IMG/VR virus record: IMGVR_UViG_3300047551_000100
Coordinates: 1-31,225 of that record
Reading direction: 5' to 3' (one strand)
Length of the DNA stretch: 31,225 nt
Source: a virus
Below, in pieces: positions 8,064-26,643 of this stretch (positions are counted from its first letter, which is position 1; the number at the start of each line of letters is the position of its first letter). The notes under the pieces were generated by a model. The model was not told the DNA's origin and did no database searches. It was given only the letters and a program-made list of their open reading frames with translations. Made by a program: the position numbers and the translations under genes.

Positions 8064-8756
8064 ATGCCAGTACCTAATATATTTGCAAATGCAACGGCGA
8101 CGATTCCGTTATCGCAACTGGATGCCAACTTTGCCACAGCGATTACGCTAGGTAATACTGCAATTCAGCTTGGCAACTCGGTATCGACGCTAAACAATAT
8201 GACGTTTGCCAACGTCACGATTAGTGGCGTAGCGACTGCCTTTCCAAACAACTTTCTGGCAAACAGTAATGTTGTTATCGGAAATACGACAGCGACGTTA
8301 GGCACGACAGTTTCAAGTGTCGGAAATCTGACACTGGCTAATGTGACAATTACTAGCGGAAGCATGACAAACGCTTCTGTTTCTAACACGACTGTTGGTA
8401 ATGCGGTATCTGATAGCGTTAGTGTTGTTGGCTACATGGGCGTTCCACAGAATAGCCAAAACAGCAACTACAACATTGTGTTGGGTGATGCGGGTAAGCA
8501 TATTTATCACCCTGCTGGTCAGGCTGCGGCAACTTATACGTTCCCGGCAAACTCGAATGTGTCATTCAGCATTGGCACGGCAGTTACCATCATCAATGGC
8601 TCTGCCAATAACGTGACCATTGCGATTACGACTGACACCATGACGTTGGCAAACTCAGCTAACACGGCTTCACGCACCTTGACTGCTAACGGTGTTGCCA
8701 CCTGCGTCAAGATTACCAATACGTCGTGGATTATTTCGGGAGCAGGCTTGTCATGA
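8064..8756 (+). CDS. Putative tail fibre / receptor-binding anchor protein (230 aa)
   Basis: The ATG directly follows the nozzle stop. The N-terminus MPVPNIFANATATIPLSQLD is a known type of phage fibre beginning and probably anchors to the tail. A repeated unit follows: GNTAIQLGNSVSTLNNMTFA at about 30-49, and a second copy about 43 residues later (GNTTATLGTTVSSVGNLTLA at about 73-92). Each is followed by NVTI. From about 130 a different domain with GTAVTIING-type strands resembles fibre tips. Asn/Thr/Val-rich composition fits beta-helical fibre segments. The stop overlaps the next gene by ATGA. Confidence 0.65.
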   Translation: MPVPNIFANATATIPLSQLDANFATAITLGNTAIQLGNSVSTLNNMTFANVTISGVATAFPNNFLANSNVVIGNTTATLGTTVSSVGNLTLANVTITSGSMTNASVSNTTVGNAVSDSVSVVGYMGVPQNSQNSNYNIVLGDAGKHIYHPAGQAAATYTFPANSNVSFSIGTAVTIINGSANNVTIAITTDTMTLANSANTASRTLTANGVATCVKITNTSWIISGAGLS

Positions 8757-10405
8757 CAGGCATCCTACAAGCACTTTTGATGGGTTACGGCGCTGCCGGA
8801 GGTGGCGGCGGGGCGTTAACTATTATCGAAACCTTTAATGCCACTGGCACATGGACTTGTCCTGACGGTGTGACGCAGGTGGACTACCTTGTTGTCGCTG
8901 GTGGTGGTGGCGGTGGATACTTTGGTGGCGGCGGTGGTGCTGGTGGGTTTCGTACTGGTACTGCACTATCAGTAACAGCGGGAACAACATATACCGTCAC
9001 TGTTGGCGGTGGGGGCGCTGGAGCAACTGGTGGAGCAAGAGGCACAACTGGTTCAAATTCTGTATTTAGCACAATAACATCTAATGGTGGTGGTGGAGGC
9101 GGTAGTCATACAAGCTCACCAAACCATAATGGTGGGAATGGCGGTTCTGGTGGCGGTGCTGCTGCTTTAGGTGTTCCACCATATAACGGCGGCACAGGTG
9201 GAACAGGAAACACGCCATCAACATCTCCCTCCCAAGGCAACAACGGTGGCAATGGTGAGGGTTCTTCTCTTTATGGCTTAGGTGGTGGTGGTGGTGGGGC
9301 TACCGCTGCTGGCGCATCTGCTGTTCCAAATAACGCTGGTAATGGCGGCAATGGAACATCCTCATCAATTAGCGGCTCGTCTGTAACTTATGCGGGTGGT
9401 GGCGGTGGTGGGGCAGATAATCGCGCTCCGTCAACAACAGGCGGCACTGGTGGTACTGGCGGCGGCGGCGCAGGAGGTAATGGTGCTAGTGGGCAAGTTA
9501 ATGGAACCGCTGGAACAGCTAACACTGGTGGTGGTGGTGGTGGTGGGGCATATTACAACCCAACAGCAAGTTTTGGTAATGGCGGCGCAGGCGGCTCCGG
9601 TATCGTCATCATCAAGTATGCAGTACCAACAAGCAATGTACTCGTATTCAAAGGCTCATCTCAATGGACTTGCCCAACAGGTGTGACTAGCGTTGATTAT
9701 CTAGTCGTGGCTGGTGGTGGTGCGGGGGGAAATGGGATCGGCACAAGTAGTTCTGGTGGAGGTGGTGGTGCGGGTGGTTTTAAAACAGGCACAGGACTAT
9801 CTGTAACCGCTGGAACGACTTACACCATAACTGTAGGTGGCGGCGGCGCAGTTGGTGGAACAACGGCTAATGGTGGGGATGGAAGCAATTCTATTTTTAG
9901 CACTATTACATCTGATGGTGGCGGTGGAGGTGGCGGCAGTTCTGGAACCGGCAACGCTGGCAATCCAGGCGGTTCTGGCGGTGGTGGTGGTGGACGATCA
10001 GGAGCAGCGGGAAGTGGTTATGTTGGACAAGGGAAAGCTGGGGGTAATGCTGGTGGTATTACTGGATTTGATGCGTCTGGTGGTGGCGGGGGTGCTAGTG
10101 CTGTTGGTGGTATTGGAAGCAGCACATCTCCCTATAACGCTGGTAATGGTGGTGATGGAACAGCTTCTTCTATTTCAGGCTCATCTGTTTATTATGCCGG
10201 TGGCGGTGGTGGTGGCGCAGAAGATGTCACATCAAACTTTGGCTCTGGTGGTTTAGGAGGAGGTGGCAACGGTGCAGACGGTAACAGTCCATCAAGCGCT
10301 GGAACGGCAAATACAGGCGGTGGTGGTGGTGGTAGTAGCGAATCTGGAACTGGTAATCCAGCATCGGCTGGTGGCTCTGGTATCGTAATTATCAAACTCA
10401 ACTAA
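8753..10405 (+). CDS. Glycine-rich tail tip / adhesin-like protein with two tandem units
   Basis: The start is ATG 8753, which overlaps the previous TGA, giving 550 residues. Two homologous units follow each other. Each begins with WTCPxGVTxVDYLVVAGGG (Trp34 and Trp305, offset 271) and ends with GGSGIVIIK (about 281-289 and 540-548). Between these lie long polyglycine runs with loops. Glycine-rich domains of this kind form polyglycine-II sandwiches in phage adhesins such as the gp38 class and bind host surface receptors. The DNA is low-complexity GGTGGT-type sequence, which favours length changes by slippage or recombination. It probably determines host range, but no receptor can be inferred. 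Confidence 0.75.
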   Translation: MTGILQALLMGYGAAGGGGGALTIIETFNATGTWTCPDGVTQVDYLVVAGGGGGGYFGGGGGAGGFRTGTALSVTAGTTYTVTVGGGGAGATGGARGTTGSNSVFSTITSNGGGGGGSHTSSPNHNGGNGGSGGGAAALGVPPYNGGTGGTGNTPSTSPSQGNNGGNGEGSSLYGLGGGGGGATAAGASAVPNNAGNGGNGTSSSISGSSVTYAGGGGGGADNRAPSTTGGTGGTGGGGAGGNGASGQVNGTAGTANTGGGGGGGAYYNPTASFGNGGAGGSGIVIIKYAVPTSNVLVFKGSSQWTCPTGVTSVDYLVVAGGGAGGNGIGTSSSGGGGGAGGFKTGTGLSVTAGTTYTITVGGGGAVGGTTANGGDGSNSIFSTITSDGGGGGGGSSGTGNAGNPGGSGGGGGGRSGAAGSGYVGQGKAGGNAGGITGFDASGGGGGASAVGGIGSSTSPYNAGNGGDGTASSISGSSVYYAGGGGGGAEDVTSNFGSGGLGGGGNGADGNSPSSAGTANTGGGGGGSSESGTGNPASAGGSGIVIIKLN

Positions 10406-10407
10406 CC

Positions 10408-10659
10408 ATGAAGAAAATATACAGGTTCTATGGCATTGACGTAGCGATGCAGATGTTGCGTCCTAATGCTAAATGGGAAATTTCTAACAACGTGTTTACC
10501 CGTTGGGATGATCCTAGACCTTGCCCATCAATAGAAGAAGTGTGTTGGGTAATGGATAAGATTAAAGAGTTTGAGGAAAGCATACCGACAATTTGGTTGC
10601 CGGAGCAGCTAGAGCAGCAGAAGCAAGAGGAAGAAGAACTAGAAAAGGCACTCGCATGA
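10408..10659 (+). CDS. Small tail-region protein (83 aa)
   Basis: Starts MKKIYRFYGIDVAMQMLRP two bases after the adhesin stop. It has a compact N-terminal part with DDPRPCPSIEEV (about 34-45) and a C-terminal Glu/Gln-rich helix (QLEQQKQEEEELEKALA), probably a coiled coil. I recognise this type as recurrent beside tail-fibre genes of aquatic phages, without a known function. A chaperone or tail-attachment role is possible. It overlaps the oxygenase gene by ATGA. Confidence 0.65.
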   Translation: MKKIYRFYGIDVAMQMLRPNAKWEISNNVFTRWDDPRPCPSIEEVCWVMDKIKEFEESIPTIWLPEQLEQQKQEEEELEKALA

Positions 10660-11258
10660 ATATGCACAACCTGTTTCCTACGCCAATCGGTATGTTCGAC
10701 TTAGATCGAGAATTTACCGATGAGGAACTGTTGTTTGTTCGCGGTCAGGAAACTAGAGCAAATGAGGGCAACACGACTAGCGTAAACAACTTTGTGCTGC
10801 GCGATCCAGTGATGACTTCTTTGCGGGATTGGGTAGAGGGCTGCGTTGCTGAATACTTTAAGGCAACTAGCGATCCAAAACACGACGTTGATTTGAGAAT
10901 CACTCAGTCTTGGTTTAACTATTCAGAGCAAGGTCAGTGGCATCACAAACACGCTCATCCGAATAGTTTTGTATCTGGTGTGTTCTATCTGAATACTAAC
11001 CCGGATGACCGTATTTACTTTTATCGTTCAGGCTGGCAACAAATCAAGTTCCCACCTGAAAACTGGAACTTGTACAACTCAGAATCGTGGTGGTTTGAGG
11101 CGGTGAAAGGGCGGCTGATTCTGTTTCCTTCGTCGCTTGAGCATAACGTGCCGACAGTTCAGGGTGAAGATGTGCGGATAAGCATGAGTTTTAATACGTT
11201 CCCAGTTGGCATTGTTGGGGATGAGATGTCGTTGACTGGTTTGAAATTGGAGGCTTGA
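10656..11258 (+). CDS. 2-oxoglutarate/Fe(II)-dependent oxygenase-like protein
   Basis: I choose ATG 10656 (ATGA overlap), giving 200 residues; the in-frame start at 10593 lies inside the previous gene. It resembles the phage family of putative 2OG-Fe(II) oxygenases (TIGR02466 / 2OG-FeII_Oxy_5), which hydroxylate substrates using Fe(II), O2 and 2-oxoglutarate. Visible features are a His cluster WHHKHAHPNSFVSGVFYL (His96, 97, 99 and 101), a distal His163 in LFPSSLEHNV, and Arg174 in VRISMSFNTF for 2-oxoglutarate binding. The substrate is unknown. Its place in the tail module suggests modification of a virion protein or a host surface component. Confidence 0.75.
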   Translation: MNMHNLFPTPIGMFDLDREFTDEELLFVRGQETRANEGNTTSVNNFVLRDPVMTSLRDWVEGCVAEYFKATSDPKHDVDLRITQSWFNYSEQGQWHHKHAHPNSFVSGVFYLNTNPDDRIYFYRSGWQQIKFPPENWNLYNSESWWFEAVKGRLILFPSSLEHNVPTVQGEDVRISMSFNTFPVGIVGDEMSLTGLKLEA

Positions 11259-12712: not shown

Positions 12713-12934
12713 GTGGAGCCGCAGTTCCTCATCAACATTCTTTTTGCGACCGCAGGAGCCGCTTTTGGGTGGATACTGAACAGTATCTCTCGCTCAATCG
12801 TCAGGATCGAGGACAGAATTGCGGAAATGCCCATCATGTACGTCAATCGAGATGACTACCGATCAGACATCCATGAGATTAAGGGAATGCTTGGCAAGAT
12901 ATTTGATCGTCTTGACCAGAAGGCCGACAGATGA
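12713..12934 (+). CDS. Single-TM coiled-coil phage protein (GTG start)
   Basis: GTG 12713 lies three bases after the fibre stop and gives 73 residues. An N-terminal hydrophobic segment (LINILFATAGAAFGWIL, about 6-22) is followed by a charged helix with Arg/Glu/Asp heptads (IVRIEDRIAEM, later IHEIKGMLGKIFDRLDQK). One membrane span plus a cytoplasmic coil is the layout of several small phage membrane proteins, including some holin/spanin accessories, but also of proteins of unknown role near tail genes. It is the first gene of the coupled run leading to the ACP and ketosynthase (ATGA overlap with 12931). Confidence 0.65.
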   Translation: MEPQFLINILFATAGAAFGWILNSISRSIVRIEDRIAEMPIMYVNRDDYRSDIHEIKGMLGKIFDRLDQKADR

Positions 12935-13278
12935 GCCTGAACATGGATGCGCTGGCTACCCCGATCTTTGGGGAGCCGGACAGCCTCCGCGATTTCTTAT
13001 TTGAAAACGGTATCCAACACCAAGTCTTTTGGGAAAGACTGACTGACGCTGGCTTCTATGTGCCACGCTACCCCATCATTGATGCTGACCCGCAAGACCT
13101 TGATGACTGGCTGTTAATACATCAACAAGAACACCAGTCCTACGCCACTATTCTTAACCTAAATGACCCCTTTAATCTGCTAGACTTGGATTTCAACCAA
13201 GAAGATGACTTTTACGATTGGGTAAACAGTCATTTGTTGATCCATGAGCAGATAGCACGAACACTGGGGGTGACATGA
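12931..13278 (+). CDS. Acidic hypothetical protein (115 aa) upstream of ACP
   Basis: An acidic 115-residue protein, rich in Asp, Leu, His and aromatic residues. It begins MSLNMDALATPIFGEPDSLR and has two similar segments about 59 residues apart: DPQDLDDWLLIHQQEHQSYA (about 54-73) and a later EDDFYDWVNSHLLIHEQIAR (about 91-110). This suggests an internal duplication of a helical hairpin with W-x(3-4)-L-L-I-H-x-Q/E. I do not recognise a family. ATGA overlaps on both sides tie it to the membrane-anchored coil protein before it and the ACP after it. Confidence 0.65.
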   Translation: MSLNMDALATPIFGEPDSLRDFLFENGIQHQVFWERLTDAGFYVPRYPIIDADPQDLDDWLLIHQQEHQSYATILNLNDPFNLLDLDFNQEDDFYDWVNSHLLIHEQIARTLGVT

Positions 13279-13568
13279 TTTCCGATGAAAACTTTTTGCG
13301 CCTGTTTAATGCGGCAATGGCGCTGGCAAAACCTGTCGGAAAACCGACAATTAACGCTGAAGAAATAGATGTACGCTTTGAAAATCTGGATGTTGATAGT
13401 CTGGATTTATTGATTATTGGAATGTATTTGTGTGACGCTTTTGATGTGCCTGAAGCTGTTGGCAAAGAAATGAAACCAGAAACGGTACGAGAAATGAAAG
13501 ACTTTCTGGTAAACAATACGCCAATGACATCTTTTGATGTGGAAGCTGCCTTGATGGTGGTGGTATGA
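13275..13568 (+). CDS. Acyl carrier protein (phage-encoded)
   Basis: A 97-residue protein with the hallmark of an ACP: the motif NLDVDSLDLLIIGMYLCDAF with Ser42 in D-S-L, the site where 4'-phosphopantetheine is attached. Acidic helix II follows, then the family's usual helix IV region (KPETVREMKDFLVNN). Carrier proteins hold growing acyl or peptidyl chains as thioesters for partner enzymes. About 14 residues beyond helix IV extend past the usual 75-80 aa ACP length. No phosphopantetheinyl transferase is visible in the window, so activation would need the host enzyme (AcpS-like). It overlaps the ketosynthase gene by ATGA, implying coupled production as partners. Confidence 0.85.
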   Translation: MISDENFLRLFNAAMALAKPVGKPTINAEEIDVRFENLDVDSLDLLIIGMYLCDAFDVPEAVGKEMKPETVREMKDFLVNNTPMTSFDVEAALMVVV

Positions 13569-14689
13569 GCCTATTCCTAACCTACGGGCATACCGTATCC
13601 AACCCTCAAACGACGCTGATGGAAGATATTTTGCACCCACAGCGTGTGCATTTCATACCGGAAAGCTATCAAGGTGCCAAACAAGGGTTCAAATACCCGC
13701 CGCATAACCTTGCCAACATGGTCATGGCACCAGCAACACTGGAATGGTTGCGGGGAAACCCGGCACTAGGCAAGACTGCCTTCATTCTGGCAGCAGGCAA
13801 TGCACATTTTGCTGGCATCAATCCACGCAAAAACCAAACGCACACGCAGTTGCACTATGAGTATAAGTTTCTGCCCTTTACGCTAACGCAAGTCATGGCT
13901 GGCAGGCTGGCAAATATGATCTGCCAACCAGATTACATAGCCACAGACTCCACTGCCTGCGCTTCTAGCCTGAAAGTCATGATGGACTGCCTGATGCTAG
14001 AAGCCTTTGGCTTTACCCGCTTCATCATCCTTTCCGTTGAAGACGCCGTATCCAATTCTGTATTGCAATTCTTTGGTGACTCTGGTGCCTGTTTAACTTT
14101 GGCTGAAGAGACTACCAAAGACATCGTGCCGAGCGCCTTTGATAGCAGAAATGGTGGGTTTTACGTCGGTCAGGGTGCTGTCTTTGCTGTTTTGCAAACA
14201 GAGGGCGAAGTCAACCACTATGGCCTGACTCCTAAAGCTAGGCTGGTGGGTGCCTACCATGCGGCAGAGAAGTGGAACAACGCCATAGGCCAAGCACCCG
14301 ATGGTAAAGGCTATGTGGATGCGATTGAAGGTGCGATGCGGTATGGGGAAGTTTTCCCTACTGACATCAAAATCGTGAAGACACACGGCACTGGCACGGA
14401 ATCCAATAATGTGTCGGAAAAGTTAGCATTGATGGATACTTTGAGTGACTTTGTGGCAACGTCATTTAAGCCAAAAATAGGTCACACAATGGGCGCTTCG
14501 GGCTTGCTTGAAACGCTACTTTTGCTTGACAATCTGGTTTATGGTGTTGTACCTGCTATTCCTAACCGCACAGAAAAAGACGATATTTTTCTGTCCGAGG
14601 ACTGCGAGACTCCTGATGGGCTGATCCTTAGTCTTGCCGCTGGAATGGGGAATGTGTATTCCGCAGCAATCTTTGACCCAGTGAGGTAA
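13565..14689 (+). CDS. Beta-ketoacyl-ACP synthase (thiolase-fold ketosynthase, phage-encoded)
   Basis: A 374-residue enzyme of the FabF/KAS class, which joins an acyl chain on a Cys to an ACP-bound malonyl unit. Catalytic residues are visible in the right order: Cys132 in STACASS, His274 in KTHGTGTE, Lys302 five residues before His307 in KPKIGHTMGASG. It is shorter than typical KAS II (about 410 aa), mainly at the N-terminus. The C-terminal GFGGTN loop that carries the gatekeeper Phe in FabF is replaced by LAAGMGN (357-363), so pocket shape or substrate should differ. It follows its ACP with ATGA overlap and lies among virion genes. Intact catalysis is likely; the product is unknown. Confidence 0.85.
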   Translation: MSLFLTYGHTVSNPQTTLMEDILHPQRVHFIPESYQGAKQGFKYPPHNLANMVMAPATLEWLRGNPALGKTAFILAAGNAHFAGINPRKNQTHTQLHYEYKFLPFTLTQVMAGRLANMICQPDYIATDSTACASSLKVMMDCLMLEAFGFTRFIILSVEDAVSNSVLQFFGDSGACLTLAEETTKDIVPSAFDSRNGGFYVGQGAVFAVLQTEGEVNHYGLTPKARLVGAYHAAEKWNNAIGQAPDGKGYVDAIEGAMRYGEVFPTDIKIVKTHGTGTESNNVSEKLALMDTLSDFVATSFKPKIGHTMGASGLLETLLLLDNLVYGVVPAIPNRTEKDDIFLSEDCETPDGLILSLAAGMGNVYSAAIFDPVR

Positions 14690-14691
14690 TT

Positions 14692-15141
14692 ATGGTTCAG
14701 ATGGTGGACAGCCGAGAGCAAGAGCTAAGTCCAGAAGACATTATCGGCATTGCCGCAATGAACACGGATGCCGAGGCAGATCGCGGTAAAGCAATTGCCA
14801 TGATCAATGCCGAGCTTCAGATGGATGATACCTTGTTCGTCCGTCAAGGCAACACGCTTTTTATCATTCACAAGGCTGCGCCCGGTGTTGGTTGGTTCCG
14901 AGCCTTGAATGCAGACGTTGCGCCAAACTATCTTGAGAACAGCGTAGAGTTTATGCGTGCTTGTTACAAGATGGGTTTCGACACAATGGCTTCGACGTTT
15001 ACCGATCCAGCCATTTTGCAGATTTTCCGCTATATCTCAAAAAATCCACCCAATCCAGAAATGGGTTACAACATACGCAAGGCAGATAACGGTCAGTTTA
15101 TTGGCAGCATTAAAACTGGCCCTGCGCGGGGAGGTCAATAA
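14692..15141 (+). CDS. Hypothetical virion-region protein, possibly GNAT-like (T7 gp13-like)
   Basis: A 149-residue protein between the ketosynthase and the first large virion gene. An alternating pattern is visible: strands TLFVRQGNTLFIIHKA (about 44-59), strand GWFRALNAD, helix YLENSVEFMRACYKMGF (about 79-95), strand DTMASTF, helix AILQIFRYISKN, strands GYNIRKADNGQFIGSIKTG. This order fits the C-terminal half of a GNAT acyltransferase, and the size and place resemble T7 gp13, a GNAT-like internal-virion assembly factor. I see no clear acyl-CoA pyrophosphate loop (Q/RxxGxG/A), so enzymatic activity is uncertain. Its type is widespread in aquatic podoviruses, which weakens a specific link to the ketosynthase. 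Confidence 0.55.
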   Translation: MVQMVDSREQELSPEDIIGIAAMNTDAEADRGKAIAMINAELQMDDTLFVRQGNTLFIIHKAAPGVGWFRALNADVAPNYLENSVEFMRACYKMGFDTMASTFTDPAILQIFRYISKNPPNPEMGYNIRKADNGQFIGSIKTGPARGGQ

Positions 15142-17420
15142 TGGGAGTCGTTGCTGATTTTGTTGGGGATGTTTTCGATGCGGTTGGCGATGTCGTAGAA
15201 GCTGTCGGTGATTTTGTCGAAGACGTTGTTGAAGCAGTTGGCGATGTCGTTGACTACGTTGTTGAGAATCCTGAGATTGTTGTCATTGCGATTGCTGCGC
15301 CTTATGCTGTCTCAGCAGTTGGTGGTGCGATAGGGGCAAGTCAAGCAGCCATTACTTTAGCTACACAGCCGATTACTGCCGCTGCTATTTCCGCATCACA
15401 AGGCGGTGACTTAGAAGACATTGGTAAAGCTGCGCTCGGTAGTTTTGCTGGCGCTCAAATTGGTGGCGCTGTCGCAAGTAAAGTTGGTGGCGCAATTGGC
15501 GCTCAAGGCGCAACAACGCCAATTCAAACTGCTTTAGCTAATGCTGCTGGCGGTGCTGCGGGTGGTGCCGCTGGTGCTGTGGCAGTTGGTGCTGATGTTG
15601 GTAAGTCAGCAATTACTGGCGCTTTAGGTTCTGCTGGAGCTTCTGTCGCACGTTCTTTGGCTGGTTCTGAACTTGGTATTGATCAAACAGGCAGAGCCGC
15701 AGAAGCTATTGCCGATGTTGGCGAGGCGGTTGGTCGCACTGCTGGTGGCGGTAATTTAGGTGAAGAACTATTGCAGGCAGGACTTTCTACAGTCACAAGA
15801 GAAGGTCGCGCTGCTACTAGAGACTTGCTAACGCCAACGGATGCTGACATCCAAAAAGAGATTAAAAAGGCTGCTGGCGTTGAAGAAACCAGTGTTGCTA
15901 GAGTTGAAGATGACATTACTAAAGCATTAACCGATCCAAACAACACAGTACAGGTTGCCTTCCAAGGGCCGGTTACGCCTGATGCTATCAACCAAATTGC
16001 ACGCAATGCCTCGCTTGACCTTATCGAAACTTGGAAAGCACGCGCTGCTGCTGATCCAAAGTTTTTAAAAGAGCTTGCACAGCCACAAAACCTACAAGCC
16101 ATGCGTGCTGCTGGCATGGTTGACTTAGCGGTGGCTGTTAGCGCAATGGCAGCATTACCTGCGGGTGGTGCTGGCGCAACTTTGTTTGCTGCTGGCGTCA
16201 CTGCAACTGAAGCGGCAAGAGCTTTGCGTAATGCGGTGCAAGAGAATGAAATGCTTGGCGGCGCTTCGCCTGACCTTGCTTTTGCTTCAGCGATTATTGA
16301 TGCGGCAACAAAACCTGTTGATCCAACTAGAGCAGTCACAGTTCGAGAAGAGAACAGATTGCCAGAGGTTGAAGTTACAGCAAAGATTGAGCCTGAACTT
16401 ACGCCAGAGCAATACAAATCAAGTGTGCAGCGCTACATTGGTGACTTTGCAGACCCAAGAAGCGCCGCTACGCCGGTTACTGTTGAAGTTGATCGTGTTG
16501 CGAAGATTCTCAACATCACAACAAAACAGGCCGCTGCACTTAAAAACTCTCCAATCTTTGACTATCTGAGCAATCCATCGCCAGATGCTAAGTCAATTGA
16601 TATTGAGACACTGCCGTTGCGTGAGCGTGCAATTCTTGAGTATGCAGCAGCCAACAATCAAGGTGGCGTTAGCCTGAATGAAGATTTCAACGTCATCATT
16701 CCGGGTAAAACGGCAACAGCGCCAACTACTCAGACTGCAAGAGCGACTCAGCGTTTCCCGCAAACGCAGACGCAAACACAAACGCAGACTAAAGCTGGCA
16801 CCCAAACTCAGACTGGTACGCAGACTGGCACCCGTACTCAAACTGGCACACAGACTATTGCTGGAACACAAACAGGTACGCAAACCGGCACTCAGACTGG
16901 TACTCAGACTGGTACTCAAACCGCAACTGACACTGGAACGCGCACACCACAAGATGCTGGAACTACACCAACATTAACGGGTGGTGATAACGCACCGGGT
17001 GGTCGCACACCAATCGTATCTGATCGCCCTGTTGATGAACTCACTGGTTCCGAATTGTTGCAAAGTGAGCGCGGCGTAATGGGCGAAGAGGGTGATCGCA
17101 CGCTGACGGAAGAGGGCGGCGAGGAAACTCAATTGGCAGAACAGCCGCTTGACTTGGATCAGATTGAACAAGACCTGATTGATTTGTTAAGCCAATCGTT
17201 CCCATTAACGCCAACTGAAGAAGGTTTTGAGCCATTGGATGTGCGTCCTGCAAGGGTTGGTAGAGCAGCGCCTAAGTCAATTAGCCCTCGCGTAGTTGGT
17301 ACTAGCCCGGTAGCTGCAATTGTTGGTGAGAAAGAACCGATCTTTGGTGGTGAACCTGATCCACAGCAAGATGTTTGGAACGTGCGTTCCCTGCGTCTTA
17401 GAAAGGCACTAGGACTCTGA
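15141..17420 (+). CDS. Large internal virion / DNA-ejection-type protein (759 aa)
   Basis: The N-terminus contains tandem heptad-like units rich in V, G, D, F (FVGDVFDAVGDVVEAVGDFV, residues about 6-25, continuing to about 40), which form an amphipathic helix. Next is a hydrophobic Ala/Gly/Val region (about 44-200) with several membrane-compatible stretches. Mid-protein is helical, residues 541-602 are a Thr-Gln repeat, and the C-terminus is acidic, ending SLRLRKALGL. Long, low-complexity, membrane-interacting proteins encoded after tail genes in podoviruses are usually internal virion proteins ejected into the host envelope. This role is inferred; no enzymatic domain seen. Confidence 0.6.
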   Translation: MGVVADFVGDVFDAVGDVVEAVGDFVEDVVEAVGDVVDYVVENPEIVVIAIAAPYAVSAVGGAIGASQAAITLATQPITAAAISASQGGDLEDIGKAALGSFAGAQIGGAVASKVGGAIGAQGATTPIQTALANAAGGAAGGAAGAVAVGADVGKSAITGALGSAGASVARSLAGSELGIDQTGRAAEAIADVGEAVGRTAGGGNLGEELLQAGLSTVTREGRAATRDLLTPTDADIQKEIKKAAGVEETSVARVEDDITKALTDPNNTVQVAFQGPVTPDAINQIARNASLDLIETWKARAAADPKFLKELAQPQNLQAMRAAGMVDLAVAVSAMAALPAGGAGATLFAAGVTATEAARALRNAVQENEMLGGASPDLAFASAIIDAATKPVDPTRAVTVREENRLPEVEVTAKIEPELTPEQYKSSVQRYIGDFADPRSAATPVTVEVDRVAKILNITTKQAAALKNSPIFDYLSNPSPDAKSIDIETLPLRERAILEYAAANNQGGVSLNEDFNVIIPGKTATAPTTQTARATQRFPQTQTQTQTQTKAGTQTQTGTQTGTRTQTGTQTIAGTQTGTQTGTQTGTQTGTQTATDTGTRTPQDAGTTPTLTGGDNAPGGRTPIVSDRPVDELTGSELLQSERGVMGEEGDRTLTEEGGEETQLAEQPLDLDQIEQDLIDLLSQSFPLTPTEEGFEPLDVRPARVGRAAPKSISPRVVGTSPVAAIVGEKEPIFGGEPDPQQDVWNVRSLRLRKALGL
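16761..16946 (+). repeat. In-frame Thr-Gln / GTQT coding repeat
   Basis: A minisatellite inside the 759-aa gene. A QT dipeptide run leads into a 12-base unit of the form GGTACTCAGACT, which encodes GTQT and recurs about ten times with third-base variation. The codon variation shows that it is not a recent slippage product, and it keeps frame throughout. It forms a flexible, uncharged linker of about 60 residues. Confidence 0.85.
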
Positions 17421-17421
17421 C

Positions 17422-18531
17422 ATGAAAATTATTGAGATGATTGCTGGTAGTCGCGGTATGGGTGACGCTAAAGCAATGGCTGAGATGCTGCGTCGGATGG
17501 GGCGTCGTGGCGACACCATGCTTGCTCACATTACGCCAGAAGAAGCCGAGATGTTGATGGAAGCTGGTGGTAGTGGCACGATCAACCCGGCAACTGGATT
17601 GCCTGAGTTTGCTCGTCGCACTGATACCTACTATGGTTTTGAACCAGAGACAGAAACTTTCCGAGTGCCAGAGCCGGAGATTGAATCACGTCCGTTAAGT
17701 CCTTTCGACTTTGACGCTAATCAGCCACAGATTCAACTAACACGGCCTGATCAACCTGCTGTTAGAAATGTTAGACAAGATGATGTTGCAGGTGGAACCA
17801 CAGCGACGTATCAGCAACAGCCACGTTTGTATCCTGAAGTGGAGATGGCACCAAGAATTGAGCGCACGTTCCCAACGGATTTTCAAACTGCGCGTTTGCC
17901 TCAATATGAAGCAGTAGATTTTGGCCGCACTCCTGAATTTAGACCACTGGAAGACATTGCTGCGCCTGCCGCAGAGCCGGGGTTAGCGCAACGTGCTGAA
18001 ACTGGATTGCAAGAACTGCAAGATGTTTTGAACCGTTATCCGAATCTAACACGCGCTGGTACTGCGGGAGCCAACATTCTGGCGCAAGCCTTGATGTTTA
18101 ATCGTGCTAATCAAGCAATGCGCCGTGACATTGAATCTACTCGCGCTGCTGCCGAACCTTTCCGTCAGGCACAGCAAGAAGCAATGGGTAGAGCAACTGG
18201 CGAAGGCTTAACGCCAGAGCAACAACAAGCGTTAGAGATTGAGCAAGCCCGTGCGCGTCAAGGATTAGGTGCGCGTGGTACGCCAACGGGTAGTGCAGCA
18301 GCCGGTATTTTGGCAGCACAGCAGCGTCGTGCGCGTAGCCTAGCCCGTCAAGAGAGCTTTACTGAAGCCTTGCGTCTTGCCAACATTGCAGATCAGTATG
18401 ACCGTCGCGCACTAGAGATGGAATTGCAGCGTGATCAGCAGTTGGCGCAGTTGTTTGCTGGCATTCTAGGCCGTGAAGTACAGCAGGCACAGCGTACTCA
18501 GGCACCTGTACCCACTGCTACTGGGAGGTAA
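17422..18531 (+). CDS. Putative internal virion protein (369 aa)
   Basis: The N-terminal domain (about 1-65) contains RGDTMLAHITPEEAEMLMEA and GGSGTINPATGLPEF, a signature I recognise from a family of uncharacterised virion-region proteins of aquatic podovirus-like phages. The middle (about 70-180) is Pro/Glu/Arg-rich and probably disordered. The C-terminal half is a long Gln/Arg/Ala helix (about 200-365, for example EQQQALEIEQARARQGLGAR). It follows the 759-aa gene after one base, in a run of four large virion-type genes. Function unknown; an ejected or core protein is likely. Confidence 0.6.
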   Translation: MKIIEMIAGSRGMGDAKAMAEMLRRMGRRGDTMLAHITPEEAEMLMEAGGSGTINPATGLPEFARRTDTYYGFEPETETFRVPEPEIESRPLSPFDFDANQPQIQLTRPDQPAVRNVRQDDVAGGTTATYQQQPRLYPEVEMAPRIERTFPTDFQTARLPQYEAVDFGRTPEFRPLEDIAAPAAEPGLAQRAETGLQELQDVLNRYPNLTRAGTAGANILAQALMFNRANQAMRRDIESTRAAAEPFRQAQQEAMGRATGEGLTPEQQQALEIEQARARQGLGARGTPTGSAAAGILAAQQRRARSLARQESFTEALRLANIADQYDRRALEMELQRDQQLAQLFAGILGREVQQAQRTQAPVPTATGR

Positions 18532-18533
18532 TC

Positions 18534-19916
18534 ATGGCAGTTGACACACTTGGTGATGCACTTGGCACAGCACCATCCTTAGTTAAAGGTTTGGGTGCGC
18601 AGACAAGCATGAAAGGGCGTGCAGACTTTGCGCGTGGCAAGTTAGGCGAAACCTTTGAGGCTGGTGCTAGGGCTGAAGAAGAAGCGGCTAGAACTCAGTT
18701 TGGCATTGAGCAAGGCCAACGCCAGAAAGAAGCCGCAGCCGAGCGTGACTTGGCTACCAAGTCCAGAGCAGAGGCCGCTACGTTAGAAGCTGGCATGAAG
18801 CCGTATCAGCAATTTGAGGCACCGCAGATCAGTGCGTCTGACTACGCCAAGAATGCTGGTATGCGCTTGCTGTCTTCCCTGATTGTGGGTGGCATTGGTG
18901 GCGCTTCAGCACGCGCCCAGTTGGTTGCTATTCGTGAGATGCAGGATGCTGAAGACCGTGTACAAGGCGAAAGATTTAATGCTGCCAAGCTGAAGTTTGA
19001 CGAGGCAGACAAAGCCCGTAAAGAGCATAACAATATGCTCAAGGATCGCTTTGAGCGTATGTTGACCTTGCTTTCCAAAGATCGTAATGCAGCAATGGTG
19101 GAAGCCAAGCTGATTGAAAGTCAGGCTGGCAATGGCTTGATTGCTGCACAGCTACGCAAAGGAAACTATCAGAAAGCCTATGAGCTATTTACAAAAGCTA
19201 TTGCTGCTTCTGATCAGGCTGATGCTGAACTAGAAAAGCAGAAGACTATCTTTGCTCAGAAGGTTGCGTTAAAGCAAACTCCCGGCGCAGGTCGGGCTGG
19301 TGGTGGCACAACCAAAGTTCAGCAGCTACCAGCACAACTAGAGAAAAAGCTGGATGAGATTGGTACGACGTTCGTGACGCTGAACCGTGCTAACCAAACC
19401 AGAAAGCCACAGTATTTTGGCATTGCGCCTTCGGATGAAATTGCTAACATGATCATTGCTGGCGTTGAGCGTGGTTTGCCAGTGGGTGACATCATGCGTT
19501 CAGTAGGCTCGGGTGCGCCGAAGGTAACACCTGAGACAGTGAACTGGTGGAAAGACTACCAAGCATTTGTAGCCCAAGTGCGTAACAAGTTGTTTGGCGC
19601 AACCCTGACACCGCGAGAAGCTGAAGACTTCCGTAAGTTTACGTTGAGTCCTGCTACTGCACCTAACGTAGCTAATAGCTACTTTAACAATCAGATTAGC
19701 ATTATCAAGAGTGCCATTGAGCGCGAACGTACTAAGGCAAGATCGCGTGGTGTAACGGATGAAACAATCTCTGCTTACCTTGATGTGCCACAAGATCAGA
19801 CAGGTGGCCCCCGGATTCCAACGGTAAACACGCAAGCAGAATACGATGCATTGCCGCCGGATGCTGAATACATTGATGCACAAACTGGCAAGCGTGGCAA
19901 AAAACCTGCGAGGTAA
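18534..19916 (+). CDS. Putative internal virion protein with long coiled coil (460 aa)
   Basis: Starts at ATG 18534 after GGGAGGTAATC. Residues about 30-90 are an Ala/Glu/Arg coiled coil. A hydrophobic Gly/Ala segment (LLSSLIVGGIGGASARAQLV, about 107-126) could insert in a membrane. A second charged helical region runs to about 245, followed by a more globular C-terminal domain containing NWWKDYQAFVAQVRNKLFGA (about 338-357) and a Pro-rich end. Layout and neighbours suit a virion core or ejection protein. No family recognised. Confidence 0.6.
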   Translation: MAVDTLGDALGTAPSLVKGLGAQTSMKGRADFARGKLGETFEAGARAEEEAARTQFGIEQGQRQKEAAAERDLATKSRAEAATLEAGMKPYQQFEAPQISASDYAKNAGMRLLSSLIVGGIGGASARAQLVAIREMQDAEDRVQGERFNAAKLKFDEADKARKEHNNMLKDRFERMLTLLSKDRNAAMVEAKLIESQAGNGLIAAQLRKGNYQKAYELFTKAIAASDQADAELEKQKTIFAQKVALKQTPGAGRAGGGTTKVQQLPAQLEKKLDEIGTTFVTLNRANQTRKPQYFGIAPSDEIANMIIAGVERGLPVGDIMRSVGSGAPKVTPETVNWWKDYQAFVAQVRNKLFGATLTPREAEDFRKFTLSPATAPNVANSYFNNQISIIKSAIERERTKARSRGVTDETISAYLDVPQDQTGGPRIPTVNTQAEYDALPPDAEYIDAQTGKRGKKPAR

Positions 19917-19918
19917 TC

Positions 19919-22294
19919 ATGGCAAGAGATCGTTTTGGTGGCGAGGTAGTCGCTGAACAGCCTCAGACTGACCGCTTTGGTGGCAGTCTGGTAGAGCAGA
20001 TTCCCGGTCAAAGCGAGGAAACGCTACGCGCTGCTGCGAACTTGCCGCCTGAAAGCCGCATTGTCACCAAGTCACCATTCGAGACTGGCTTAGAAGCAGT
20101 AAGTGCTGTGCCAATTTTAAGTGGCGTATCAAAACTGTTTCAGCTTGGCACAAGAGGTACACGGCTTGCACCGTATGGTGCGCGTGCTGCTGATGTATTT
20201 ATCCCTAAGACTGGTAAAGAGTTACTCAAGACAGGTGCTTTATCAGGACTAGGTGGTGCTGCTGCACAAACAGCAAGCAATCTACTGCCACCAGAAACTA
20301 GCCCACTTACCCGCTTTGGTGTTGAGACTGCGGCTGGTGTCGGTACTGAAGGCCTTGCTCGTTCACTAGGTGTTGCAGGTCGCGCTTTTCGTCCACTGGT
20401 TCCCGGTGGTGTTGAGCGTGCCGCAGAGCGTGTAGTCAGAGCAATGACACCACAGCAAGTGGCTGCACTGCCTCAAACCGTTGAATCTAAGACCGCAATG
20501 GTGCGTGCTGCGCAAGAGAAGCTGCGTGGCAAGCCAATAAATGAGCCAATTGACGCGGCAGAAGTTGCAAGGCTGTTAAACATTGAGTCGGTTGAAGGTC
20601 GGCGTCGTGGTGAGCAATTGGCAGGTAGCTTAGTTGCTGGCACTGAACGTCGTTTGGCAGAGATTAGCCAGCCTCGCACAATGGAAGCTATTGGCGCTGA
20701 TGCCCGTAAGCTGGCAAATGATCGCTTGCTGCAACTAAAGGCAGATCGTGAAACCGCAACTCAAGCCAACAAAGAAGCCATGCTTACCGAAGCTCGCAAT
20801 AAAGAATTGCAAGGGCAGGGGGTGGAAGGTACTAGGGCTTTCAAAAACATGGAAGTTGCATTGGATGCGTTTATACGCGATCCAGTAACAAAAAGAGAAC
20901 GCATTACTGGTGCAACAAAAAACCAGTTTGAGGAAGTTCGCCGCGAAGCCCTTGGTGTTATCGTAGATCCACTAACCGGGGTAACAAGTAAAGCTAAAGT
21001 TGGTTTTGAGCGTCTTGAGCAATTACGTCGCCGGTTGGGTGATCGTGCTTCTGGCCTGCCTGAAACTGGCTTTGATGCCATTGGTCAGCAAGATGCTAAA
21101 GACCTTAAAGGCTTGGTTGAGCGCATCATGTCTGAATTTACTGGCAAAAGGTTTGACAAGTATCGTGCTGATTATGAGCAATTAAGCCAGCCGATCAACC
21201 AATTCCAAACTGCGGTAGGCCAAGCGTTGACAGCCCCTAGCGAAAAAATTAAAGGCGCAATGGCTACGCAAGCATCAACTTTGCCTGCAAAAATCTTTAG
21301 TACGCCAGAAAATGTTGATGAGTTTATTAAGTTTATTGGTGGTGACGCAAAAAATATGGCGGCTGTACAAGGCTTGGCAAGAAATTATGTCAGTGCTGAA
21401 TTGGCTAACAAAACACCTGCGCAAATGCGTAGCTGGCTGCAAACAAATAGCGGTTGGTTATCTCGCTTTCCTGATTTAAATAAACAATTTTCTGACTATG
21501 CACGCAAGCTAGAGCAAACTGGTCGTGTTGTTAAAAAAACAGAAACACTAACTGAACAGCGTGCAAGAATGTTTGAGATGGGCGGCACTCAGACACAGCA
21601 AGCTGAGAGCTTTAAGAACCTGATCATGGGTACTGGCAACGTGCGTGATGTTGCTTCTGCCGCCAAAGTCTTGGGTAGAACACCTGAAGGTGCTGAAGCA
21701 TTCAAAGCTGGTGTGCGTGACCTGATCGGCATCTTGCCTCCGGGGGCAATTGAAAGAAGCTACCGTGATCGCATCAAGCCTTCCATGCAGGCTAGTGGCT
21801 TGTACACGCCGGATGAGATTCGGTTTGTGGACGATGCAGTGGCAGACATTGTTTCTATTCAGACAGCTATTAGCCGCGCTTCTCAAAACATTGGTCGCAC
21901 ACCCGGTACGGAATCCTCTGCCCAAGAGCTTACTCGCTTGGTCAACAATGAGTTGGCGCAGGTCAAGAAGGGCGGCGCTGTGGCTGGCCTGTACACGGCT
22001 GGACTGGCTGCGCTGGCTAACCGCTTTGGTGTACTGCCTGAAGTGGGTGGTGCAGTAGGTGCGGCTGGTGGCTTTGGCGCTGCACTTGCGCTAGATCGTT
22101 ACCGCCAGTATGTTGCCAACATTCGCTCTGCCGTTAGCGACATCGTGACTGATCCGGTCAAGTTAAAGCAGGTGATGAAGGCTCCCAAAGAGCAGCGTCA
22201 GGGCGTGATTGCTACGCTAATTCGTCAAACCATCGGTACGCAAGTTGGCACTAGAGCGCCAGAAAGGATTGAAAATGCCCCTAATGAAAGGTAA
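19919..22294 (+). CDS. Largest virion / ejection-type protein (791 aa)
   Basis: The N-terminus carries two short repeats DRFGGEVV (4-11) and DRFGGSLV (18-25), a pattern I associate with large phage virion proteins. Hydrophobic Gly/Ala segments lie near 100-120 (LLKTGALSGLGGAAAQTASN) and near 680-710 (VAGLYTAGLAALANRFGVLP). Between them are long charged helices. No lytic transglycosylase motif is visible, so it is not an obvious T7 gp16 homologue. As the last and largest of four consecutive virion-type genes, it is probably injected with the DNA. It overlaps the next small gene by 20 bases. Confidence 0.6.
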   Translation: MARDRFGGEVVAEQPQTDRFGGSLVEQIPGQSEETLRAAANLPPESRIVTKSPFETGLEAVSAVPILSGVSKLFQLGTRGTRLAPYGARAADVFIPKTGKELLKTGALSGLGGAAAQTASNLLPPETSPLTRFGVETAAGVGTEGLARSLGVAGRAFRPLVPGGVERAAERVVRAMTPQQVAALPQTVESKTAMVRAAQEKLRGKPINEPIDAAEVARLLNIESVEGRRRGEQLAGSLVAGTERRLAEISQPRTMEAIGADARKLANDRLLQLKADRETATQANKEAMLTEARNKELQGQGVEGTRAFKNMEVALDAFIRDPVTKRERITGATKNQFEEVRREALGVIVDPLTGVTSKAKVGFERLEQLRRRLGDRASGLPETGFDAIGQQDAKDLKGLVERIMSEFTGKRFDKYRADYEQLSQPINQFQTAVGQALTAPSEKIKGAMATQASTLPAKIFSTPENVDEFIKFIGGDAKNMAAVQGLARNYVSAELANKTPAQMRSWLQTNSGWLSRFPDLNKQFSDYARKLEQTGRVVKKTETLTEQRARMFEMGGTQTQQAESFKNLIMGTGNVRDVASAAKVLGRTPEGAEAFKAGVRDLIGILPPGAIERSYRDRIKPSMQASGLYTPDEIRFVDDAVADIVSIQTAISRASQNIGRTPGTESSAQELTRLVNNELAQVKKGGAVAGLYTAGLAALANRFGVLPEVGGAVGAAGGFGAALALDRYRQYVANIRSAVSDIVTDPVKLKQVMKAPKEQRQGVIATLIRQTIGTQVGTRAPERIENAPNER

Positions 22295-24424: not shown

Positions 24425-24687
24425 TGGCTAAAAAGGGTGTCAGTCTAGCTATTGGGCGCGGTGAGAAGCTACCTGTAAGCAAGGGTGCTGGCTTGACTGC
24501 GAAGGGTAGAGCCAAGTACAACCGCGAGACTGGCAGCAATCTCAAAGCCCCTGCGCCTAATCCAAGGACTAAGAAGGATGCAGGCCGCAAGGCGAGTTTC
24601 TGTGCGCGTATGGCTGGTGTCGTGCGTAAGGCTAAAGGGCCAGCGACACGGGCAAAGGCATCACTCAGAAGGTGGAACTGTCGATGA
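24424..24687 (+). CDS. Small basic DUF6321-like phage protein (87 aa)
   Basis: The start is ATG 24424, overlapping the endolysin stop as TGATG. The Lys/Arg-rich protein carries the segment KGRAKYNRETGSNLKAPAPN (about 30-49) and the end SFCARMAGVVRKAKGPATRA...SLRRWNC, which I recognise as the DUF6321 type found in cyanophages and other aquatic phages. Function is not established; the strong positive charge suggests nucleic acid binding. ATGA overlap with the methyltransferase gene. Confidence 0.7.
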   Translation: MAKKGVSLAIGRGEKLPVSKGAGLTAKGRAKYNRETGSNLKAPAPNPRTKKDAGRKASFCARMAGVVRKAKGPATRAKASLRRWNCR

Positions 24688-25196
24688 GTCATCAAGCGCA
24701 GTTGGATTTTGTAGCAAGTCTGCGGTTTAAGTTTCCTGAATATTTCATTCGCAAGAACGTGCTGGAGATAGGTAGCTTAAACATTAACGGTTCAATCAGA
24801 CCATTCTTTGAGCAATGCACCTATGTTGGGGTTGATCTTGGCGAGGGAGCCGACGTTGATGTGGTGGCTAAAGGTGAAGACCTCACCTATGCTGATGGTA
24901 CTTTTGACGTTGTGGCAAGTTGTGAGTGTTTTGAGCATAACCCTGAGTGGGTGGCGACACTAAAAAACATGATCAGGATGGCGTCAGGTTTGGTATTCTT
25001 TAGCTGTGCTACCACTGGACGCAAGGAACATGGCACACCACGCACTAGCCCTCATGATGCGCCATTCTGCGGTGACTATTACCGCAACTTGACTGAAGAA
25101 GATGTGCGGCAGGAAATAGATTTAAGCGTATTCAAAAGATATGAATTTATAAGTAATGATACGGTTCACGACTTATACTTTTGGGGGATCAAATGA
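24684..25196 (+). CDS. Class I SAM-dependent methyltransferase
   Basis: I choose ATG 24684 (ATGA overlap), giving 170 residues. Motif I is NVLEIGSLNINGSIRPFF, motif II ends in YVGVDLGEG (Asp for the SAM ribose), and the post-II region is DLTYADGTFDVVASCECFEH, as in Methyltransf_11-type enzymes. The substrate is unknown: no DPPY/NPPY motif, so it is not an adenine-N6 DNA methylase; small molecule, sugar or protein methylation is more likely. The last 60-80 bases become AT-rich towards the HNH gene that follows. Confidence 0.75.
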   Translation: MSHQAQLDFVASLRFKFPEYFIRKNVLEIGSLNINGSIRPFFEQCTYVGVDLGEGADVDVVAKGEDLTYADGTFDVVASCECFEHNPEWVATLKNMIRMASGLVFFSCATTGRKEHGTPRTSPHDAPFCGDYYRNLTEEDVRQEIDLSVFKRYEFISNDTVHDLYFWGIK

Positions 25197-25860: not shown

Positions 25861-25916
25861 GCCTAGCCTTTTCTCCCTAGGCTCTTACCCCGCCTCTCCT
25901 CTGGCGGGGTTTTTTT
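25861..25916 (+). terminator. Strong intrinsic terminator at the convergence point
   Basis: The main hairpin has an 8-bp stem ACCCCGCC (25887-25894) / GGCGGGGT (25903-25910) with an 8-base loop, and the T run continues to 25916. A smaller upstream hairpin GCCTAG (25861-25866) / CTAGGC (25877-25882) lies just before it. It ends rightward structural transcription. The leftward glycosyltransferase stop overlaps its T-run. No A-tract lies on the left side, so it works mainly for rightward transcripts. Confidence 0.9.
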
Positions 25917-26643
25917 ACTCACTCGGTAGTAAGCCACCTTCAAACAGATACGTTCCCATGTGACCTAAACGGCACCAAGGGGCAGCATAAATCTTGCCGC
26001 CAATCTTGCGCCACTGGTGACAGAAGAAGTAATCTTCCGACAACAGGCGCTTGCTCTCAGGATCAATCGGATCAAGGTAGAAGCCGTAGATTTCCTTGCC
26101 AGCCATGTAATTCATGTCGCTCACAAAGGTCTGCGTGTGCGGCTTTAGCTTCTCAAACACCTCGCGCTTGATCAGCATGAAGCCCGTGCCAATGGCTGAT
26201 ACTTCACAAGGCTCATCTACCGGCACGGTGATGGAAGGTTCGGCATCAATCAAGTTGACCACGAAGCTGCCGGTAAAGTTTTTCAGGTTCTCTTGTCCTT
26301 CCAGTGCCGCCTGCCTAACGGTATGCCAATTGATTTCCTTCTTTGGATAGATTCCACCTATTACGTCCTTGTCCGCTTCCAGCATACGGACTGCATCCTC
26401 TGCCTTAAACGCAATATCTGCATCAATCCAGAATAGGTAGTCTGCGTCACTTTCCAAGAACTGATAGGCCATGTTGCAACGTGCGCGGGTGACAAGTGAT
26501 TCATTGAACATTAAGGATACGGATGTCTTGTAACCATGCTGGCCTAGGGTGCCAATCAAGTTGATCAAGGACTGAGCATAAACCCCAGTGCATTGACCGC
26601 CATACATAGGTGTTGCAATAAAAATATGCTTTTGCTTTTCCAT
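25915..26643 (-). CDS. Glycosyltransferase, GT-A fold
   Basis: A 242-residue protein of a phage glycosyltransferase type. It begins KHIFIATPMYGGQCTGVYAQ (strand-loop for nucleotide binding) and has VTRARCNMAYQFLESDADYL leading to WIDAD (Asp74 and Asp76, the metal-binding DxD). At the C-terminal side are SEDYFFCHQWRKIGGKIYAA with the catalytic-type ED (203-204) and LGHMG with His228. GT-A enzymes transfer a sugar from a nucleotide sugar. The acceptor is unknown: phage DNA, a virion protein or host glycans are possible. ATG 26643 has GGAG seven bases upstream. Last gene of the leftward unit. Confidence 0.8.
   Translation of the reverse strand: MEKQKHIFIATPMYGGQCTGVYAQSLINLIGTLGQHGYKTSVSLMFNESLVTRARCNMAYQFLESDADYLFWIDADIAFKAEDAVRMLEADKDVIGGIYPKKEINWHTVRQAALEGQENLKNFTGSFVVNLIDAEPSITVPVDEPCEVSAIGTGFMLIKREVFEKLKPHTQTFVSDMNYMAGKEIYGFYLDPIDPESKRLLSEDYFFCHQWRKIGGKIYAAPWCRLGHMGTYLFEGGLLPSE

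Follow-up and report, generated by a model that had tools for sequence, protein, structure and literature searches.

Gene content of the locus

The stretch analyzed here (hereafter, the window) comprises 31,225 bases of an IMG/VR virus record (IMGVR_UViG_3300047551_000100, positions 1–31,225), which encodes a major head protein and a portal protein with a Pfam match to the SU10 portal family (E = 2e-8). Three adjoining plus-strand genes in the window encode an acyl carrier protein (ACP; 13275–13568, 97 amino acids), a β-ketoacyl-ACP synthase-like enzyme (ketosynthase, KS; 13565–14689, 374 amino acids), and a putative N-acyltransferase with a predicted GNAT fold (14692–15141, 149 amino acids). 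The ACP was assigned from its open reading frame (ORF) and an orthologue profile, the KS from Pfam and PDB matches and an alignment with FabF, and the GNAT-fold protein from its predicted structure and its position adjoining the KS. A fourth plus-strand gene (15141–17420, 759 amino acids) follows and is presumed to encode the first ejection (internal virion) protein. This role is presumed because of its position in the cassette, and because the equivalent cassette of Manatee Spring virus (MW202545) contains a lytic transglycosylase gene (SLT, E = 2e-16); the assignment also drew on the conservation of the N-terminus.

The ACP and KS genes in the window overlap by the four bases ATGA (13565–13568). 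Of 115 loci counted, among them repeat retrievals of the same contig, 113 have an overlap of the ACP stop with the KS start, as ATGA or GTGA. In the initial group of loci, the GNAT gene, about 150 codons long, follows the KS at a spacing of −11 to +2 bases.

The acyl carrier protein and the ketosynthase

Judged from its sequence, the 97-amino-acid protein is an ACP of the phosphopantetheine-binding (PP-binding) family, with the serine of a DSL motif at the attachment site (D41-S42-L43-D44). The single sequence scored 15.0 bits against the Pfam PP-binding family, below the cut-off of 20.8; a profile of 19 orthologues retrieved solved ACPs from the PDB (best E = 1.6e-4) and placed DSLD on the phosphopantetheine serine. 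D41, S42, and D44 were conserved in all 74 distinct orthologues.

The KS is likewise identified by sequence as a member of the β-ketoacyl-ACP synthase (KAS) superfamily, within the thiolase-fold class. It matched Pfam Ketoacyl-synt_C above the family cut-off (E = 5e-14), and its closest PDB match was KAS II (E = 4e-20). It is not a FabF equivalog, because its score against the NCBIfam fabF model (E = 5e-23, 81.5 bits) lies far below the equivalog cut-off of 493.75. The residues C132, H274, K302, and H307 align with C163, H303, K335, and H340 of Escherichia coli FabF and were invariant in 77 of 77 distinct viral sequences, which are 53–99% identical to the KS of the window. The gate motif of FabF, GFGG (containing Phe400), is replaced by GMGN in the viral enzyme, and M361 is invariant. 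The KS also matched phrog_35856 (5.8e-33), a family whose function is unannotated. These results bear out the sequence-only reading of this DNA, which had recognized an ACP with Ser42 in a DSL motif and a KS with these four residues, encoded by genes overlapping at ATGA, and had expected both to match family profiles: the KS falls in the KAS superfamily, and the ACP is matched through the 19-sequence profile. That reading treated the two as a pair; both genes are real, but it missed the third gene and the link to the gene that follows.

The predicted GNAT-fold protein

The product of the third gene had no sequence match in Pfam, PHROGs, NCBIfam, or the PDB sequences. Its AlphaFold2 model, built with 19 family sequences (predicted local distance difference test, pLDDT, 88), shows the helix and strand order of a GNAT acyltransferase. 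At E ≤ 0.001 the model had 35 PDB matches, nearly all of them to GNATs; these included RimI and Ard1, both protein N-alpha-acetyltransferases, and the acyl-homoserine-lactone (AHL) synthase TofI (rank 31, E = 9e-4). Because the E-values of these fold matches were around 1e-4 and the template modeling (TM) scores mostly 0.4–0.6, the fold appears credible and the relationship remote. The residues D6, S7, E41, G53, N54, T55, N73, A74, and D75 are invariant or nearly so in the family. They include the junction of strand 4 and helix 3 (N73-A74-D75, with N73 and D75 invariant), which is the place where GNATs are expected to bind the acyl thioester.

Distribution and conservation of the three-gene unit

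A search with a KS alignment identified KS relatives in 432 IMG/VR contigs. The ACP, KS, and GNAT genes were contiguous in 69 further viral loci holding all three (the exceptions are cut by contig ends) and in 73 of 73 loci found with the GNAT gene as bait, so that the ACP–KS pairing, as had been anticipated, is not peculiar to one assembly. Wherever the flanks were intact, the GNAT gene adjoined the ACP–KS genes, and no ACP–KS pair apart from a GNAT gene was seen among the viral loci surveyed. The unit was kept across phages whose later cassette genes differ. All three genes are under purifying selection, with ratios of nonsynonymous to synonymous substitution rates, relative to their relatives, of 0.03–0.10 for the KS, 0.09–0.24 for the ACP, and 0.05–0.13 for the GNAT gene.

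In the annotated-phage collection, the one record with a close full-length KS relative was Manatee Spring virus, in which the protein is already labeled 3-oxoacyl-ACP synthase. No close cellular relative of the KS was found in a profile search that covered one genome per species for 84,980 bacterial and archaeal species and worked through short conserved peptides, by which distant relatives can be missed. This search yielded two sequences, one on a virus-like contig in a metagenome-assembled genome (MAG) and the other a distant bacterial KS. The former, the sole close match among bacterial assemblies, is binned in a Balneolaceae MAG (L119) and carries the same virus genes, including the three-gene module, with 72% KS identity. 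It is probably a virus contig, and its binning offers a possible hint of the host.

N-terminal features of the presumed first ejection protein

The 759-amino-acid protein starts with Met-Gly and continues as an amphipathic helix of (VVEAVGD)n repeats (residues 1–45) and a hydrophobic segment (residues 46–64). The amphipathic moment of this N-terminal stretch was unmatched in 1000 shuffles. Across the loci, the products of the fourth gene usually start with M-(S/G)-x-V; an amphipathic helix rich in valine comes next, and then a hydrophobic segment. Residue 2 was Ser or Gly in 64 of 74 distinct N-termini linked to a GNAT gene, compared with 26 of 224 other long ORFs in the same loci, among which Ala dominates (p = 5e-33), and with 6 of 23 counterparts in GNAT-less phages (p = 1e-7); both p-values ignore common descent. 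Because removal of the initiator Met is permitted by Ser, Gly, and Ala alike, the shift away from Ala at this position is informative. The first 60 residues lacked Lys in 20 of the 74 N-termini, including that of the window, which favors the α-amine as the acceptor.

Several other features of this protein were observed. A low-complexity TQTGTQTQ repeat lies inside it (window positions 16600–17000), and the motif at its C-terminus (IFGGE..WN..SL..K) is shared with a phage that lacks the module (L121). In MW202753 (L122), an unannotated ORF at about 17040–17890, located between annotated genes, resembles the first ejection protein; it starts with MGSAAPVV and ends with KPVWNVASLKTKDETGSA.

Joint switching of the GNAT gene and the N-terminus, and loss of ACP–KS

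The conserved gene upstream of the ACP gene (12931–13278, plus strand, 115 amino acids) lies outside the module. It was rejected as a module member because it is also present in phages without the module, and it served as an anchor for collecting phages of both kinds. Among 62 anchor-sharing loci with enough sequence, 24 carried the ACP, KS, and GNAT genes, 13 carried the GNAT gene only, and 25 carried none of them. The valine-rich amphipathic N-terminus was present in 36 of 37 phages with the GNAT gene versus 1 of 25 without it (Fisher p = 6e-15, with relatedness ignored). The two exceptions are threshold effects: by eye, L165 is amphipathic and L161 is not, and both were re-scored accordingly for the tree. 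On the tree of the anchor gene, the GNAT gene and the type of N-terminus each changed seven times, always together, and both traits differ between L144/L147 and L145/L146, whose anchor proteins are identical.

Traces of the KS gene remain in some GNAT-only phages. The 131-base spacer between the anchor and GNAT genes in L127 and L128 holds a decayed KS (98 nucleotides, 81% identity, E = 2e-21, with internal stop codons), and another KS fossil was found in L142, L144, and L147 (52 nucleotides, 87%, E = 1e-12). The ACP–KS genes have been lost at least twice while the GNAT gene was retained, and this order of loss suggests that the GNAT protein acts nearer to the target in the sequence of steps. 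No convincing KS fossil was detected in the spacers of L165–L172. Relocation of ACP–KS elsewhere in phages lacking an adjacent copy was considered and rejected: in 13 virus records, which may be fragments, 12 had no KS and one had a stop-ridden fossil.

The charge of the N-terminus also differed, with a median of +3 in GNAT-only phages versus −6 in those with the KS (p = 0.005; 12 vs 63 sequences). It is plausible, from the few lineages available, that cationic charge replaces a lipid or membrane anchor where the KS is absent. Lys-rich amphipathic N-termini resembling membrane-active peptides are common in the GNAT-only loci L142, L144, L165, L193, L195, L196, and L204.

Proposed acylation of the first ejection protein and alternative explanations

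We propose that an acyl-ACP is produced by the viral KS together with the viral ACP and that the GNAT protein transfers its acyl group to the N-terminal end of the first ejection protein, which would promote membrane insertion of that protein; we regard the chance that this is correct as about even. A host transferase would load phosphopantetheine onto Ser42 of the ACP, and the viral KS, which retains its catalytic residues, would then condense an acyl primer and malonyl units on the viral ACP. The host FabD, FabG, FabZ, and FabI enzymes would probably complete the chain, yielding a defined acyl-ACP kept apart from the host pool. The GNAT-fold protein, if active as its predicted structure suggests, would transfer the acyl group from the ACP to the α-amine of the Gly or Ser exposed once the initiator Met is removed. 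With its amphipathic helix acylated, the first ejection protein, which is likely to correspond to T7 gp14, would then be better able to enter the host envelope and open a DNA channel. A broader form of the proposal, in which acylation is largely self-contained, with a phage-made acyl donor and a viral GNAT lipidating the first ejected protein, and T7 gp13 is the counterpart of the last step, seems to us to have somewhat less than an even chance. The sequence-only reading had suggested a dedicated acyl-chain or polyketide-like activity expressed with the virion proteins. A dedicated acyl activity fits the data, and lipidation of a virion protein, which it had listed beside a change to host membranes and a small signal, is now the favored option; the polyketide-like character has found no specific support.

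Several points weigh against the proposed acylation. We infer every chemical step as well as the acceptor, and the identity of the fourth gene product as an ejection protein is presumed from its position. The R/Q-x-x-G-x-G/A pyrophosphate loop that binds coenzyme A (CoA) in GNATs is absent, and N73-A74-D75 stands in its place; GNAT-fold enzymes of the LuxI and HlyC types are not known to have this loop either. There is no sequence-level match of the GNAT protein to any acyltransferase. Given this and the missing CoA loop, it could instead be an assembly factor without enzymatic activity, as has been suggested for T7 gp13. Residue 2 of the presumed acceptor is A, T, P, K, or N in 10 of the 74 N-termini, and Pro is hard to acylate; common descent may also explain part of the Ser/Gly bias. 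Of the seven independent joint switches on the best tree, only three lie on well-supported branches. Finally, ACP–KS can be lost and is thus not essential everywhere.

The assembly-factor idea can be extended to the whole unit: the GNAT protein would be a structural chaperone binding the amphipathic N-terminus, and ACP–KS would be accessory, with acyl-ACP, for example, acting as a stabilizing ligand without transfer. In keeping with this, T7 gp13 is encoded at the equivalent position, ahead of genes 14-15-16, is likewise predicted to have a GNAT fold, and has been described as a morphogenesis factor (PMC6775973), and both the lack of the canonical CoA loop and the existence of GNAT-only phages would be expected. 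However, a catalytically complete and strongly conserved KS together with an ACP would be difficult to account for if no acyl group were transferred, and the preference for Ser or Gly as residue 2 suggests chemistry at the N-terminus; we consider a pure chaperone unlikely.

It is more doubtful still that the ACP and KS are auxiliary metabolic genes whose products, in the infected cell, increase or divert the host's synthesis of fatty acids or change the composition of its membranes. Phage ACPs have previously been interpreted in this way (PMC11705849, PMC8224337), and the KS does have the tetrad of an elongating enzyme. Nevertheless, the genes lie inside a virion-protein cassette and were never seen apart from the GNAT gene, the KS scores far below the FabF equivalog cut-off and has an altered gate loop, and neither a host origin nor a close cellular relative emerged from the search of 84,980 species. 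A metabolic role would also leave the joint switching with the N-terminus unexplained.

Acylation of lysines in the ejection cassette, rather than of an N-terminus, in the manner of HlyC and CdiC, has a low probability in our assessment. The logic would be the same, in that a secreted protein gains membrane activity through an acyl-ACP-dependent acyltransferase (PMC8510554), and one column of the GNAT alignment holds His in 61 of 70 sequences, alongside the invariant D75. No His is invariant, however, and the His/Asp catalytic dyad of HlyC and CdiC is not recognized in the family because even this best column varies. Lysine acylation of the amphipathic region was rejected as a general explanation, given the N-terminal regions (20 of 74) that offer no Lys in their first 60 residues, that of the window among them. 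The least probable alternative, production by the three proteins of a small molecule such as an N-acyl amine or an AHL-like signal, gains some support from TofI among the fold matches and from the GNAT fold and acyl-ACP use of LuxI enzymes, but many plain GNATs match better than TofI, no Pfam or NCBIfam match places the protein in the LuxI family, and the GNAT-only states, the link to the N-terminus, and the presumed ejection gene directly 3′ would be unaccounted for.

Other genes of the window

Three further plus-strand genes complete the presumed ejection cassette. The second cassette gene (17422–18531, 369 amino acids) has a homologue in a relative without the module (E = 4e-17), the third (18534–19916, 460 amino acids) was assigned by position and has no family match, and the fourth (19919–22294, 791 amino acids) was assigned by position and by a homologue in a module-less relative (E = 4e-18). 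In the tail-fiber region, a 2-oxoglutarate- and Fe(II)-dependent oxygenase (10593–11258, plus strand; Pfam 2OG-FeII_Oxy_5, E = 2e-20) is another possible protein-modifying enzyme, and a 559-amino-acid protein that matches the Gly-rich domain PF21722 twice (8726–10405, plus strand; E = 4e-44) is likely a fiber. Near the lysis genes are an S-adenosylmethionine-dependent methyltransferase (24672–25196, plus strand; phrog_32762, 3e-58) and a conserved protein of unknown function (25915–26643, minus strand; phrog_1574, 7e-53).

Comparison with known systems

The ACP and KS share the KS fold, the C-H-K-H residues, the DSL motif of the ACP, and the acpP-fabF gene order with KAS II (FabF) and AcpP of E. 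coli. Unlike FabF, the viral KS belongs to a clade distant from all FabF sequences, has the GMGN gate, and is encoded in an operon of virion proteins. An ACP, in some cases with fabF, has been reported in phage or predicted prophage genomes, namely as gp30 of the Alteromonas phage R22Y (PMC11705849) and as acpP/fabF/fabG in Rhodobacteraceae prophages (PMC8224337), but no GNAT and no link to ejection proteins was described in these cases. The Rhodobacteraceae prophages were not used as a precedent; their genes follow the host order fabG-acpP-fabF and may be stretches of host operons.

A small protein with a predicted or proposed GNAT fold is also encoded beside ejection genes in T7 (gp13, PF11090) and in the cobavirus/SIO1 group (pc40), and a link between gp13 and the cobavirus pc40 GNAT was proposed earlier (PMC6775973). 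T7 gp13 (L285, 3001–3414) was modeled as a GNAT fold with a pLDDT of 94, and RimI and Ard1 were among its best solved matches. The predicted fold and the position before the ejection genes, presumed in the case of the window, are common to both proteins. Homology between them was not detected by sequence profile: the window protein had no Pfam match to PF11090, and the hhalign probability was 0.1%. T7 also differs from the window in having neither an ACP nor a KS. In P22, the small gene 14 (DUF2824, PF11039) lies directly before the injection genes 7-20-16, as the GNAT gene of the window does before its presumed ejection cassette, and one DUF2824 protein was among the viral fold matches of the window protein. 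Here too, profile alignment detected no homology, and P22 lacks ACP–KS.

The structure of ApxC has shown that it is a GNAT-type enzyme. The acyltransferases HlyC/ApxC and CdiC use acyl-ACP to modify proteins whose function requires binding to or entry into a membrane, as is proposed here, and acylation by CdiC can strengthen the hold of a protein on the outer membrane (PMC8510554). These enzymes draw on host acyl-ACP and acylate lysine through a His/Asp dyad, whereas the phages encode their own ACP and KS, and their GNAT protein lacks an invariant His. In T7, gp14 is the first ejected protein; it localizes to the outer membrane, where it forms a pore (PMC8954989).

The sequence-only reading did not recognize the ACP–KS pair as a described phage system, and we likewise found no account of a phage KS–ACP–GNAT unit or of acylated ejection proteins in the open-license literature searched, outside which most subscription journals lie. 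To our knowledge, there is no earlier case of a phage synthesizing an acyl group and attaching it to its own virion protein, and the system proposed here, if correct, would be the first. Natural controls are available in phages that carry all three genes, only the GNAT gene, or none of them. The proposal would offer a chemical answer to the question of how ejection proteins stored in the capsid enter the host envelope within moments of release, and would suggest what the small GNAT-fold genes ahead of the ejection genes do in T7 (gene 13) and other podophages.
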